From: Bacillota bacterium
GTDB taxonomy: Bacteria > Bacillota > Bacilli > Alicyclobacillales > SLC66
Length of the DNA: 42,515 bases
NCBI GenBank assembly: GCA_021805735.1
Contig: JAJZEE010000027.1
Location: forward strand, 1 to 42,515
Reading direction: 5' to 3'
Positions 11,042-33,168 of this stretch are shown here, piece by piece. Position 1 is the stretch's first letter. Each line of letters opens with the position of its first letter. The notes under the pieces are model-generated. The model was not told the origin of the DNA, did no database searches, and saw only the letters and a list, made by a program, of their open reading frames with translations. The translations under genes were made by a program, and so were the position numbers.

Positions 11042-12745
11042 TCAGCGTCCAGAAAACCGTAGTTGCAGTTCTTCCATCTCCACTTTTTCAATTCGCCGAA
11101 AAAGTGGTTCCGGTACGGTGAACTGCCTCCCTGGTTGATAGGAATACAAGTCGAATTCGTCTTTCAACCACTCTCTACGCTCCCCGGCAGCCAGATTCAG
11201 CGCGTCAAAAACCCTCGCCGACGAAAAGGGGATTATGGGCTCGGCTGCAATAGCAAAGCATTTAATGAGATTGATTGCCGTGCGCAGGACCATTGCAGCT
11301 TCAGTACGGTTCGTCTTGACAAGGTTCCAAGGAGCCCGCCGGTCGAGATACACATTTCCGAGCGACCAGAGTTCGCGAAGCGCCTGGATAACCTTTCGAA
11401 ACTCCAGGTTTACGAACTGGTGTCGATAGGCCGCCAATACTCTCTGGCAATCCTCCTTCAGTTTTTCCTCCAGTTCTGACGGCGAACCGCCGTCGGGAAC
11501 GCGATCGCCAAACTGGGCGACCGTCAGTTTTAGCGTTCGATTGACGAAGTTTCCAAAGTTTCCGACCAAGTCCTTGTTCAGCATGGTGGCAAACAGTTCC
11601 CAGGTAAAGCTGGCGTCATCCGTTTCAGGCGAGTTTGCCAGTAGAAAATACCTCCAGTAATCAGCGTCAAACAACTCTAAAGCATCATCCAAAAATATTC
11701 CGCGTTTTTGGCTGGTGGAAAATTTCCCGCCGTAATAAGTCAACCAGTTAAAACTCTTAATCTGAGTGGCCATCGTCCATGGCTCGCGTGTTCCGAGAAT
11801 CATCGCCGGGAAAAAGACCGTGTGGAACGGAACGTTATCTTTGGCCATGAATTGCGTATAAGTCACATCAGAGGCGTTCAGCCACCAGTCTTTCCAGTCA
11901 CGACTGTCCGGGGCCTGGTCAGAGTACTCCTTTGTAGCTCCGACGTAGCCAATTGGCGCGTCAAACCACACATAAAACACCTTCTCCTCAAACCCGTCAC
12001 GCGGAACGGATACGCCCCACTGAAGGTCGCGCGTGATGCAGCGTTCATTCAACCCTTCGTTCAGCCACTTCATCGCGATAGAGCGGGTCAGACGCGACCA
12101 CTTTTCGTGGGATTCAACCCAGGTTCGCACCTCGTTGGCAAGCGCATCGAGTCTGAAGAACAGGTGTTTGGTCGTGCGTACTTCGAGTTCGGTGCTCCCG
12201 GAAACAGCTGATCGCGGAGCGAGTAAATCCACAGGATCGAGCACCGAAGTGCAATTTTCGCATTGATCGCCCCTCGCCGCTTCATAGCCACATTTGGGAC
12301 ATGCGCCGATAACGTACCGATCAGGTAGAAAGCGCTCGTCCTTTAAGGAATACACCTGTCGAATTGGGCGTTCCTCGATATAACCGTTGGCGGCTAAACG
12401 TTCGAAGAAATGCTTGGTCAATTCATGATTTTGCAGTGAAGAAGTCCTGCCGAAATAGTCGAACGACAGCCCGAACTCCTGGTAGATGGACGCCTGTTTC
12501 TGATGCATGGCGTTGCAATACTCCTGAACCGATAAATCCGTCTCAAGTGCTGACAATTCTGCCGGTGTGCCATGTTCATCGGTTGCGCAGACAAATATTA
12601 CGTCCTCACCCTCCAGTCTTAAGAAGCGAGCGTACGCATCCGCAGGAAGCAAGGAGCCCGTAAGATTTCCAAGATGTTTAACACCATTAATGTATGGCAG
12701 CGCGCTGGTAATCAGGAACCTTGACAGTTTGAACCATCTCCTCAT
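11042..12745 (-). CDS. metG: Methionyl-tRNA synthetase without C-terminal dimer domain, 567 aa
   Basis: A class I synthetase that charges tRNA-Met. The N-terminus has 'ALPYINGVKHLGN' with the HIGH-type motif HLGN, and 'VCATDEHGTP'. A connective peptide follows with a zinc-knuckle pattern (CPKCGYEAA, CENC near residue 150). The catalytic loop reads GGKFSTSQKRGIF, so the usual KMSKS is KFSTS, a variant found in one MetRS subgroup. The helical anticodon domain follows; the C-terminal EMAP/Trbp111-like domain is absent and the protein ends soon after 'PEPLFRRIEKVEMEELQ'. ATG 12745 has no clear binding site, and GAGGAG overlaps codons 1-3, so a downstream CTG (12727) is an alternative. It lies downstream of a GNAT and an AAC(3)-like gene, but behind its own promoter, leader peptide and terminator. 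Whether it is the only MetRS in the genome is unknown. Confidence 0.93.
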   Translation of the reverse strand: MRRWFKLSRFLITSALPYINGVKHLGNLTGSLLPADAYARFLRLEGEDVIFVCATDEHGTPAELSALETDLSVQEYCNAMHQKQASIYQEFGLSFDYFGRTSSLQNHELTKHFFERLAANGYIEERPIRQVYSLKDERFLPDRYVIGACPKCGYEAARGDQCENCTSVLDPVDLLAPRSAVSGSTELEVRTTKHLFFRLDALANEVRTWVESHEKWSRLTRSIAMKWLNEGLNERCITRDLQWGVSVPRDGFEEKVFYVWFDAPIGYVGATKEYSDQAPDSRDWKDWWLNASDVTYTQFMAKDNVPFHTVFFPAMILGTREPWTMATQIKSFNWLTYYGGKFSTSQKRGIFLDDALELFDADYWRYFLLANSPETDDASFTWELFATMLNKDLVGNFGNFVNRTLKLTVAQFGDRVPDGGSPSELEEKLKEDCQRVLAAYRHQFVNLEFRKVIQALRELWSLGNVYLDRRAPWNLVKTNRTEAAMVLRTAINLIKCFAIAAEPIIPFSSARVFDALNLAAGERREWLKDEFDLYSYQPGRQFTVPEPLFRRIEKVEMEELQLRFSGR

Positions 12746-12760
12746 CGTTTAGCCCGGATC

Positions 12761-12798
12761 AATAAAACACGCCGCAGGCAGGTGTGCCCACGGCGTGT
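12761..12798 (-). terminator. Intrinsic terminator in the metG leader (putative attenuator)
   Basis: On the minus strand ACACGCCG (12798-12791) pairs perfectly with CGGCGTGT (12774-12767). A second stem GGCA/TGCC (12788-12785 with 12780-12777) closes a 4-nt loop, and TTTATT (12766-12761) follows. It lies 16 nt upstream of the metG ATG and 21 nt after the stop of a Met-rich leader ORF, so read-through is required for metG expression from the leader promoter. Confidence 0.75.
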
Positions 12799-12818
12799 GT
12801 AAGGTCTCATTTGTTAGT

Positions 12819-12902
12819 CTAAAGCGACTGCAATCGAGTCCTCAACCGCGAGCATAAATGTGACATACGCATTGAACGCATCATCATCAGCATGTTCATC
12901 AT
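12819..12902 (-). CDS. Methionine-rich leader peptide of metG, 27 aa (candidate)
   Basis: The ORF begins ATG ATG AAC ATG CTG ATG ATG ATG CGT (residues MMNMLMMMRSMRMS) and carries 8 Met codons among its first 13, ending at TAG 12819-12821. AAAGGA (12919-12914) lies 11 nt upstream of ATG 12902; an in-frame ATG at 12923 with a weaker GGAAG site would add seven residues. It lies between a good promoter and an intrinsic terminator, directly upstream of methionyl-tRNA synthetase. That is the arrangement of an amino-acid attenuator such as trpL or pheL, in which ribosome stalling at codons for the scarce amino acid decides read-through. A second overlapping frame (12814-12912, GTG start, acidic 32-residue product) also looks protein-like, but its GTG is only 1 nt from the AAGGA site. 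Expression is not shown; the interpretation is inference. Confidence 0.5.
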   Translation of the reverse strand: MMNMLMMMRSMRMSHLCSRLRTRLQSL

Positions 12903-12944
12903 TTGTGCCCACGTCCTTTCCATAATGTCTTCCAATTGTTTGAC

Positions 12945-12973
12945 AGTGTATCACTGAACGTGGTGATAATCAA
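12945..12973 (-). promoter_or_regulatory. Promoter of the metG leader transcript
   Basis: On the minus strand TTGATT (12973-12968) and TACACT (12950-12945) are separated by 17 nt. Transcription would start near 12938, about 15 nt before the first possible leader ATG. It lies immediately beyond the stop of the upstream GNAT gene, so metG can be expressed separately. Confidence 0.5.
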
Positions 12974-12978
12974 CCTGG

Positions 12979-13482
12979 CTAATCCATTCCCACAACATGG
13001 CTTCTTCGTTCCAACAATATAATGTCACGCCACATACCGTTCATTTTACCAATACGTTCTCTGCGGCCAACGGCTCGAAACCTAAATGCTTTATGCAGTT
13101 TAAGACTGGCGCTGTTTTCGGGGAAAATCCCAGCCTGCAGGGTCCAAAATCCGTTTTGTTCGCTCTCTTCAATTAAGGCATTTAACAGTCGACTGCCGAT
13201 TCCCTTGCCACGGTTGATTTGACTCACATAAATGCTGACCTCTGCAACACCGCCATAAACGCATCTGCCCGACGTCGGGCTTAGAGCAGCCCATCCCAAA
13301 ACTGCGCTTGCTGAACGCGCAACAAGTCTACATGTCGTTATATGAGTTTCATTCCACTCAGTCCAAGAGGGCGCTTCCTGCTGAAAGGTGGCATTACCTG
13401 TATCAATTCCCTCAAGATATATTCTCCGGACGTCCTCCCAATCTTCTGGAACCATTGGATGAATTTTAATTGCATCGTCCAT
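12979..13482 (-). CDS. GNAT acetyltransferase, phosphinothricin-acetyltransferase-like, 167 aa
   Basis: An acetyl-CoA-dependent N-acetyltransferase of the PAT/Bar-like subgroup. It shows the N-terminal 'YLEGIDTGNATFQQEAPSW' segment typical of that group, 'GWAALSP', the 'AEVSIYV' strand and the acetyl-CoA loop motif 'INRGKGIGSRLL', followed by 'LQAGIFPENSASLKLHKAFRF'. The substrate may be an amino-acid analogue or another small amine; annotation as phosphinothricin acetyltransferase is by similarity only. ATG 13482 follows AAGGGG by about 7 nt. It lies 56 bp after the AAC(3)-like gene on the same strand and is probably co-transcribed with it. Confidence 0.85.
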   Translation of the reverse strand: MDDAIKIHPMVPEDWEDVRRIYLEGIDTGNATFQQEAPSWTEWNETHITTCRLVARSASAVLGWAALSPTSGRCVYGGVAEVSIYVSQINRGKGIGSRLLNALIEESEQNGFWTLQAGIFPENSASLKLHKAFRFRAVGRRERIGKMNGMWRDIILLERRSHVVGMD

Positions 13483-13538
13483 ACGCTTACCCCTTCGCCA
13501 GTAAGTAGCGGCCGCCGCAGTTCCCATTTCGGCTCATC

Positions 13539-14381
13539 CTATGGGTTGGCGGCCGTCCGATTCTGTTCCATCCAATCGACAGCGAAGTCCACAAGCGCTC
13601 GCTGGCGCATGAGTCTGCACTCTGCGCCAGCGACGGCTCCGACTCGCACCACTGCCGCCGTCCCGGCAACCGCCTCAAATGCAGTTCCGACTGCGTGAAA
13701 ATCATCAGAGTCGTAATCGATGTCCGGGAATGTGACCCACTGCCGCTGTCCATCCACAAGAATGGGCGCGCCTGCCGTTATCGTCGTTTTCCCAGGATAA
13801 TGGGCCCGATACTCGGCCAGATGGAGCGATGTATTGTTTTCGTGCGATACACCAAGGAGCAGAACCCAGGAGTCGAGACGGTACATGGTTCCGAGCGGCG
13901 ACGTTTCGCCGAGTCCGTTTGGCAACGCGTGGTCGGCGGTCAGCGCGGCTGCATGTTTCCCCCAGGCAGCGAATGATACCTGCGGATGCGCGCTGCGCAG
14001 CACGCCGGGAGCTTTGCGGAAACATTCCGCGATGGCGCCCATCTGTCGGGTCGGAGTGAAATCCGGATCGTACGGAGGCATTGTCTGCCGAATCGTCTCC
14101 CACCATGTCTCGGGCACAGGAGGTCTGCTCCAACCGGCGGGATCCGACAGTTCGCTGGTCTGAGTCGGCATGACCAGCGTTCCATCTGCAGTCAGGACGC
14201 GCTGCAGCGCCTGGATGACGGCCACGGGTCCCCCGCAGACCCAACCGTCAAGCGACTTCATGGATGAGTGCGCGATCAGGGTCATGCCCGGTTGAAGCCC
14301 GAGCGTCAGCAGATCACGCGTGAGCGAGTCAGTGGTGATCAGTCGCGCTGGATACGGGGGCGTGCGCGTATCGTCTTGCAT
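13539..14381 (-). CDS. Aminoglycoside N3-acetyltransferase (AAC(3)/YokD family), 280 aa
   Basis: The protein shows the AAC(3) family pattern: 'LIAHSSMKSLDGWVCGGP' near residue 30, 'GTLVMPTQT', 'GAIAECFRKAPGVLRSAHPQVSFAAWG' and 'SPLGTMYRLDSWVLLLGVSHENNTSLHLAE', the last with the conserved acidic and His residues of the active site. Members acetylate the 3-amino group of 2-deoxystreptamine aminoglycosides, although many chromosomal homologues have weak or no resistance activity. ATG 14381 follows GGGAGG by 7 nt; longer in-frame extensions have no binding site. It is the first gene of a small minus-strand run with the GNAT. Confidence 0.9.
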   Translation of the reverse strand: MQDDTRTPPYPARLITTDSLTRDLLTLGLQPGMTLIAHSSMKSLDGWVCGGPVAVIQALQRVLTADGTLVMPTQTSELSDPAGWSRPPVPETWWETIRQTMPPYDPDFTPTRQMGAIAECFRKAPGVLRSAHPQVSFAAWGKHAAALTADHALPNGLGETSPLGTMYRLDSWVLLLGVSHENNTSLHLAEYRAHYPGKTTITAGAPILVDGQRQWVTFPDIDYDSDDFHAVGTAFEAVAGTAAVVRVGAVAGAECRLMRQRALVDFAVDWMEQNRTAANP

Positions 14382-14527
14382 TGTCTGGCCTCCCAGTTCC
14401 GGAACTCTGGTATTCCGTTTCTTTGTGAGTTCTTGCGTGACCGAACGGCAAGCAGATTTATCTACCAGGAAAATGTTAATTTTCATCACGTCGATGGCGG
14501 CGCGTCAGCGCCATTGGAGTCTACTGA

Positions 14528-32543: not shown

Positions 32544-32807
32544 ATGTTGTGGTCGGAGGTTCGCGAGCTATTTCCGGATCAGTTTGTGCTGGTGCAGTCA
32601 TTAAAATCGCACCAAGATGGCAGCAAGTTGTATGTAGATGAAATGGCGGTTATTCGTCCGATACCAGATCCGCATGAGGCTACTAGAGAACTTCTAAGGG
32701 CCAAACATGAAAACTTTGTCTATCATACGGGTAGACCAGAAATGGTTATGGAGATTGTTTCTCGCGTGGGCTTTAGGAGGTCACAAGTTGAAGATCGCAC
32801 CAATTGA
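32544..32807 (+). CDS. Small conserved protein paired with a retropepsin, 87 aa
   Basis: A soluble protein with 'LWSEVRELFPDQFVLVQSLK' at the N-terminus, a central 'KLYVDEMAVIRPIPD' strand and 'YHTGRPEMVMEIV' near the end. Proteins of this layout are often found directly upstream of small retropepsin-like proteases in Firmicutes, to my knowledge without an assigned function. It overlaps the protease gene by 20 nt in another frame, which implies translational coupling. It may be a substrate, inhibitor or specificity partner, but that is speculation. Confidence 0.75.
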   Translation: MLWSEVRELFPDQFVLVQSLKSHQDGSKLYVDEMAVIRPIPDPHEATRELLRAKHENFVYHTGRPEMVMEIVSRVGFRRSQVEDRTN

Positions 32808-33168
32808 TGGTCTTCTATTTGTCTCAATGACGATAACATTCCGAGGACAAAGCAGACTAATCGACCATTTAGTGCTTGATACCGGCGCGAGCCACTCAGT
32901 GATATCAATGGAACTGGTTGATGATATGGGGATTTATGGCGATGTTGATGATGAAATTGTTGTCATGCATGGCATTGGTGGTGTCGAACGGTCTATCCGT
33001 AAAAAGATTGAGTCAATCGAGTTTGGAACGTTTAAACTGTCCGAAGTCAAATTGGATTTTGTTAACTTTGATTCCCACTTCGGAATCAATGGTCTGTTGG
33101 GAGCAGACATTCTTACGGCAGGACGGTTTGTTATCGACCTAGATGCAATGGAGATTTATCAAAAGTAA
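32788..33168 (+). CDS. Retropepsin-like aspartic protease (clan AA), 126 aa
   Basis: The single-domain protease has the active-site motif LDTGASHSVIS (DTG near residue 32), followed by a flap region 'HGIGGVERSI' and the 'FGINGLLGADIL' motif, which corresponds to the hydrophobic-hydrophobic-Gly (psi) element. It should work as a homodimer. It has no signal peptide or membrane segment, so it is probably cytoplasmic. TTG 32788 is set by AGGAGG (32775-32780) with 7-nt spacing; the frame is open upstream but only as an overlap of the partner gene. Confidence 0.85.
   Translation: MKIAPIDGLLFVSMTITFRGQSRLIDHLVLDTGASHSVISMELVDDMGIYGDVDDEIVVMHGIGGVERSIRKKIESIEFGTFKLSEVKLDFVNFDSHFGINGLLGADILTAGRFVIDLDAMEIYQK

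Follow-up and report, generated by a model that had tools for sequence, protein, structure and literature searches.

The leader region and the gene metG2

The window, which is the whole stretch of 42,515 nucleotides analysed here (contig JAJZEE010000027.1, from a bacterium of the Bacillota), carries on its reverse strand a gene for a methionyl-tRNA synthetase (MetRS), metG2 (11042-12745, 567 aa), and between this gene and an acetyltransferase gene ending at 12979 lie a short leader and an intrinsic terminator, also on the reverse strand. The leader begins with a putative promoter, composed of a -35-like hexamer, TTGATT (12968-12973), a 17-nt spacer, and a -10-like hexamer, TACACT (12945-12950); the promoter as a whole scores 8 of 12. 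The same geometry, with a 17-nt spacer throughout, recurs in the relatives described below (TTGATT/TATACT, TTGCTG/TATACT, TTGTGT/TAGAGT, TTGAAT/TACACT, and TTGATC/TACAAT); a -35 starting with TTG stands at the same place in most of them, and L085 and L086 have TATACT at -10. Downstream, a Shine-Dalgarno sequence, AAAGGA (12914-12919), which is largely conserved in the alignment, precedes a leader ORF of 27 codons (12819-12902, encoding MMNMLMMMRSMRMSHLCSRLRTRLQSL) with eight Met codons among its first 13 (12864-12902), the putative sensing segment. When the intergenic region was shuffled 5000 times with its dinucleotides preserved, no shuffle gave an open run of 13 codons that begins with ATG and contains at least six ATG codons, compared with the eight observed. 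The leader thus has the short ORF of a trp-type attenuator, provided with a ribosome-binding site and rich in the relevant codons. Another Met-dense open stretch, with five ATG codons in 13, lies elsewhere in the window on the forward strand (32921-32942) and overlaps an ORF of 153 aa (32707-33168).

The intrinsic terminator (12761-12798) consists of a 14-bp stem (12798-12767) and a TTTATT tail, with a predicted energy of -25.8 kcal/mol for the terminator segment, and there is no other such site within 12650-13050. It is located between the leader ORF and the structural gene, as in trp-type attenuators, and its stem covaries. The promoter, AAAGGA, the 27-codon ORF with eight Met among its first 13 codons, and the terminator were all found on the reverse strand where the preliminary description of this DNA had placed them. 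That description also counted 15 nt from the end of the terminator tail to the ATG at 12745 as the start of the gene; the distance is correct, but this ATG is probably not the true start. It lacks a clear Shine-Dalgarno site, and the aligned start codon (GTG in L085, ATG in L086 to L089) has as its counterpart in the window a CTG at 12727 with AGGAG 10 nt upstream, which is probably where metG2 starts. Directly upstream of the leader, the reverse strand carries genes for an ArsN1-like GNAT and an AAC(3)-like acetyltransferase (12979-14489); in G011 and G012, too, metG2 has an AAC(3)-like gene in its vicinity, and this neighbourhood does not extend past the genus.

The best solved relatives of the MetG2 protein are 1rqg and the human-type cytosolic enzyme 5gl7, followed by the 1f4l group, placing it closer to the E. 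coli, archaeal, and cytosolic enzymes than to the type-1 enzymes of S. aureus, that is, among the type-2 enzymes. The genome encodes a second, ordinary type-1 MetRS (685 aa, contig C138) that is closest to 4qrd and 7wpi. A type-1 gene was present in all 11 tested genomes that hold metG2 or a fragment of it, implying that metG2 is auxiliary. As a MetRS, its product acts on the very amino acid that the leader encodes. Type-2 enzymes are reportedly poorly sensitive to inhibitors of the type-1 enzyme (PMC8165550).

Conservation of the leader in related genomes

The leader and terminator precede orthologous metG2 genes, in frame, in six genomes from three genera and two families, with MetRS identities of 65-94%. 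Besides the window, these are L085 (G011) and L086 (G012, 94% identity), both of the same genus, L087 (G001, 75%) of another genus, L088 (G018, 71%) of another family, and L089 (G023, 65%). The leader peptides, in this order starting from the window, are MMNMLMMMRSMRMSHLCSRLRTRLQSL, MTNMQMMMRSMRMSHLCSRLRTRLQSL, MTNMRMMMRSMRMSHLCSRLRTRWQSL, MMDMRMMMDAMRMPCLCSRFRIRLFLM, MMTMCMIMQSMRMSHVCSRSWIAYRM, and MANMQWMMRSMSMRLSCPRLEHRE. None of the six genomes departs from Met at codons 1, 4, 8, 11, and 13, and no ATG is invariant in the other frames; the remaining invariant codons, TGC at 17 and CGG at 19, both fall inside a pairing segment (region 2, below). An alignment of relatives, set beforehand as a check on the preliminary description, showed that the Met run, its frame, and the terminator are kept in 6/6 intact copies. 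The alternative acidic frame on the same strand is not the conserved one, as it is interrupted by a stop in L089 and has no shared end, and it was rejected as the coding frame.

The same comparison bears on the possibility that the ORF is the gene of a small functional protein or a chance ORF, and that the terminator merely ends the transcript of the acetyltransferase gene, which does lie upstream on the same strand. The upstream gene changes in L086, L087, L088, and L089, and the leader and terminator remain. The conserved bases are those of the pairing segments and the ATG codons, whereas the peptide varies in its C-terminal half. In addition, the terminator shows covariation and has segments in common with the leader. 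We regard this explanation as very improbable.

At E ≤ 1e-100, metG2 was found in 10 of the 59 genomes of the order, fragments counted, and the six above are the only intact cases known to carry the leader. Met-rich leaders are retained before decayed metG2 genes in G041 (L091) and G042 (L166), G024 and G025 hold metG2 fragments only, and L090 has metG2 without the leader. In the related family, four genomes (L091, L092, L093, and L166) have the gene in decayed form or as fragments, and in L091 leader and synthetase are joined by a deletion. When 399 genomes of the class were searched with a covariance model of the leader, no further convincing member was found: the weak matches L098 to L100, L165, and L167 to L172 looked, on reading, like coding or chance matches. 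The pattern matches L186, L188, L190, and L194 lack a leader start within the letters matched. A search for Met-rich leaders upstream of 84 start sites (nearly all from Streptomyces, cyanobacteria, alphaproteobacteria, and others) returned close relatives only, and no convincing one was found at more distantly related type-2 MetRS loci elsewhere in the class and phylum, several of which have no start that the pattern could recognise.

Pairing segments and predicted folding

Four segments of the leader RNA can form three alternative pairings. Region 1 (CGTGGGCA, 12906-12913) overlaps the ribosome-binding site of the leader, region 2 (TGCTCGCGG, 12846-12854) comprises leader codons 17-19, region 3 (CCGTGGGCA, 12785-12793) is the 5' arm of the terminator, and region 4 (TGCCTGCGGCGTGT, 12767-12780) is its 3' arm. 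Region 2 can pair either with region 1, forming a protector stem (8/8 pairs in the window) that would permit termination when the leader is free, or with region 3, forming an antiterminator (9/9 pairs in the window and 7-9 of 9 in relatives) that excludes the terminator stem 3:4. Region 1 is a near-copy of region 3 and region 2 of region 4, as the three pairings require. The segment that a stalled ribosome is predicted to free for the antiterminator is thereby accounted for, as in trp-type attenuators.

The pairings were then counted in blocks that had been excised from the loci and aligned manually. Over six distinct sequences, 97.9% of the cells of stem 1:2 are paired, and 1:2 and 3:4 jointly reach 98.3% over six distinct sequences that include L164 and L166, with five pairs changed on both sides; in the terminator stem, both sides have changed in relatives at 4 of the 12 pairs counted. 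In 0/500 shuffles did 1:2 and 3:4 attain the observed share of paired cells, count of cells changed on both sides, or covariation score, and slid versions of the two stems are only 22-46% paired. For the antiterminator 2:3, 92.6% of the cells are paired against 35-48% when slid. Taken alone, this pairing is no better than in column shuffles, in part owing to the likeness of regions 1 and 3. In four lineages, the folding energies of both 1:2 and 2:3 were jointly reached by 0.4, 0.0, 0.1, and 0.2% of the shuffled leader tails. The parts of the leader, their conservation, the three pairings, and the covariation in 1:2 and 3:4 are thus read directly from sequence and its comparison.

The preliminary description had proposed a different antiterminator, in which GCGTATGT pairs with ACACACGC. 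These segments do pair at 7 of 8 positions in the window, but at only 5/8 in L087, 4/8 in L088, and 6/8 in L089, and we rejected this pairing because it is not conserved. The better and conserved partner of the terminator 5' arm in the compared sequences is the segment of leader codons 17-19.

We computed partition-function folds of the nascent RNA up to region 2 or region 3, masking a ribosome footprint of 31 nt where a ribosome was placed. In the free RNA made up to region 2, 1:2 forms, and in the model it is lost in all six sequences when the ribosome sits on codon 2 or codon 4; once region 3 is made with the ribosome at codons 2-4, 2:3 is predicted to dominate. The complete free RNA is predicted to fold into 1:2 and 3:4. 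In the model, therefore, the expected order of states appears and an early stall exchanges 1:2 for 2:3. When free RNA ends at region 3, L087, L088, and L089 remain in 1:2 (0.98-1.0), whereas the window, L085, and L086 favour 2:3 at equilibrium even without a ribosome (0.90-1.00), implying that in the latter three the off state must use either the earlier formation of 1:2 (kinetic control) or a moving ribosome. For stalls at codons 8-13, the modeled footprint does not directly cover region 1, and 2:3 is still favoured in most cases.

The signal and the relation to known attenuators

Taken together, the comparative evidence supports the earlier suggestion of a Met-codon ribosome-mediated attenuator for a metG gene, and we consider it highly probable that, through ribosome-mediated attenuation of transcription, the leader controls metG2 in response to the level of charged tRNA-Met. 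The leader and terminator of the original proposal stand, its antiterminator partner is replaced, a protector stem is added, and the target is an auxiliary type-2 MetRS and not the housekeeping enzyme. We infer that transcription starts at the leader promoter and that the leader is translated. If ribosomes completed the leader, or never began it, region 2 would be held by region 1, the terminator 3:4 would form, and metG2 would be off. If charged tRNA-Met were scarce, the ribosome would stall within the Met run, at codons 2-13; an early-stalled ribosome would cover region 1, so that 2:3 could pair ahead of the synthesis of region 4, the terminator would be blocked, and the polymerase would read through into metG2.

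Methionine is a hard case for such a device. Because the initiator tRNA, too, is charged by MetRS, starvation is expected to cut initiation at the leader along with elongation, and this expected lowering of initiation by scarce Met-tRNA counts against the attenuator reading. The location of region 1 at the leader's own ribosome-binding site offers a testable answer, in which an untranslated leader would be off and a stalled leader on.

A different possibility is that an untranslated RNA, a riboswitch or a T-box-like element, senses methionine, SAM, or tRNA directly. T-boxes do occur before second MetRS genes elsewhere and the genome has 17 T-box matches, but none of these is at the leader or near either MetRS gene, and the window has no match to the T-box covariance model (RF00230) there. 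No Rfam family reaches threshold at the leader, and with E up to 1 a single weak snoRNA match appears. The conserved frame and Met codons also argue against an untranslated sensor, which we judge the least probable of the explanations weighed here. In another family of Bacilli, by contrast, the orthologous metG2 is preceded by a T-box that scores 113.6 bits (L101:1059-1295, 65% identity) and, as read from the alignment, apparently has AUG as its specifier, and T-boxes were found at 14 of 20 further loci of Bacilli or related bacteria with more distant type-2 MetRS genes; one is also listed before metS of Bacillus cereus (PMC3771891). As judged from these sequences, the leader peptide fills here the role that T-boxes mostly hold before the second MetRS genes of other Bacilli. 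The two kinds of element share the gene role and a presumed signal, uncharged tRNA-Met, and differ in that a T-box binds the tRNA directly without translation. The second MetRS in Bacilli would thus be wired to the charging of tRNA-Met by two unrelated RNA mechanisms. The base of the enzyme tree was not resolved, and the tree does not separate a leader-first from a T-box-first order.

The four-region element also occurs, in the single genome G024, upstream of an efflux-type MFS gene with kinship to drug exporters (L164:1500-1680; G024:C1:1267243-1267333, +), with perfect 1:2 and full 3:4 pairing and a leader, MMQVLQSMQMLQARQCPCIVCSRLRT, that contains four Met and five Gln (CAA) codons. This case raises the possibility that the leader answers ribosome-targeting antibiotics instead of Met-tRNA, like the bmrCD, vmlR, and erm leaders, as part of a drug-resistance regulon, and two further observations point the same way: in the window metG2 adjoins the AAC(3)-like and ArsN1-like acetyltransferase genes, and some leaders contain Arg-X-Arg (as RLR or RTR), a motif associated with arrest by macrolides. 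However, Arg-X-Arg is missing in L088 and L089, and where present it lies in or after region 2, so that a stall there would mask region 2 and favour termination. Met codons 4, 8, 11, and 13, which a general stall sensor would not need, are invariant in the metG2 leaders, the T-boxes at related second MetRS genes indicate tRNA charging as the signal, and the gene neighbours are not conserved past the genus. We therefore think it improbable that antibiotics are the signal.

Every feature of a trp-type attenuator that can be tested in sequence is found in the leader preferred here as a sensor of charged tRNA-Met. In the trp and his attenuators of E. coli, segments 1-4 form the mutually exclusive pairings 1:2, 2:3, and 3:4, and a stall at the cognate codons leads to antitermination. 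The same arrangement is predicted here, with the differences that region 1 precedes the leader start, region 2 lies within the ORF, and the leader stop falls between regions 2 and 3. The closest parallel is an auxiliary, indolmycin-resistant tryptophanyl-tRNA synthetase of Streptomyces coelicolor, TrpRS1, which Vecchione and Sello reportedly found in 2010 to be controlled by ribosome-mediated transcriptional attenuation. In both cases, a second synthetase for the amino acid encoded in the leader would be attenuated by stalling and would probably respond when the main enzyme is inhibited; ours concerns Met instead of Trp, Bacillota instead of Actinomycetota, and a type-2 beside a type-1 enzyme, and its protector stem uses the leader ribosome-binding site. 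We found no described attenuator with a Met-coded leader for a MetRS gene in Rfam or in the literature searched, and we know of none. Within the Firmicutes, leader peptides with His codons have been predicted from terminators and clustering before the hisS* and hisZ paralogues of bacilli (Naville and Gautheret 2010, PMC2965389); there, too, a leader peptide stands in place of a T-box before a duplicated synthetase-type gene, with another amino acid and another gene. A further case in the Bacilli is bmrB-bmrCD of Bacillus subtilis, where ribosome-mediated transcription attenuation responds to ribosome-targeting drugs (PMC4191407), unlike the sensors of amino-acid starvation; it is relevant to the MFS gene of L164.

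What is new in the compared sequences is methionine as the amino acid, an auxiliary type-2 MetRS as the target, and a protector stem on the leader ribosome-binding site, and the leader would thus apply a classic mechanism to a new amino acid. MetG2 is likely an inducible back-up enzyme, used when charging of tRNA-Met fails, for example when the type-1 MetRS is inhibited or methionine is short, and the leader is in keeping with a view of second MetRS genes as inducible reserves against inhibitors of MetRS1. A more speculative extension, which we hold to be rather doubtful, is that the element is a portable attenuator, specific to this order and sensing translation, which couples failed charging of Met-tRNA to a small resistance regulon, comprising a drug-insensitive MetRS and, in one genome, an efflux pump. 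If so, natural MetRS-inhibiting compounds would be present in the habitats of these bacteria.
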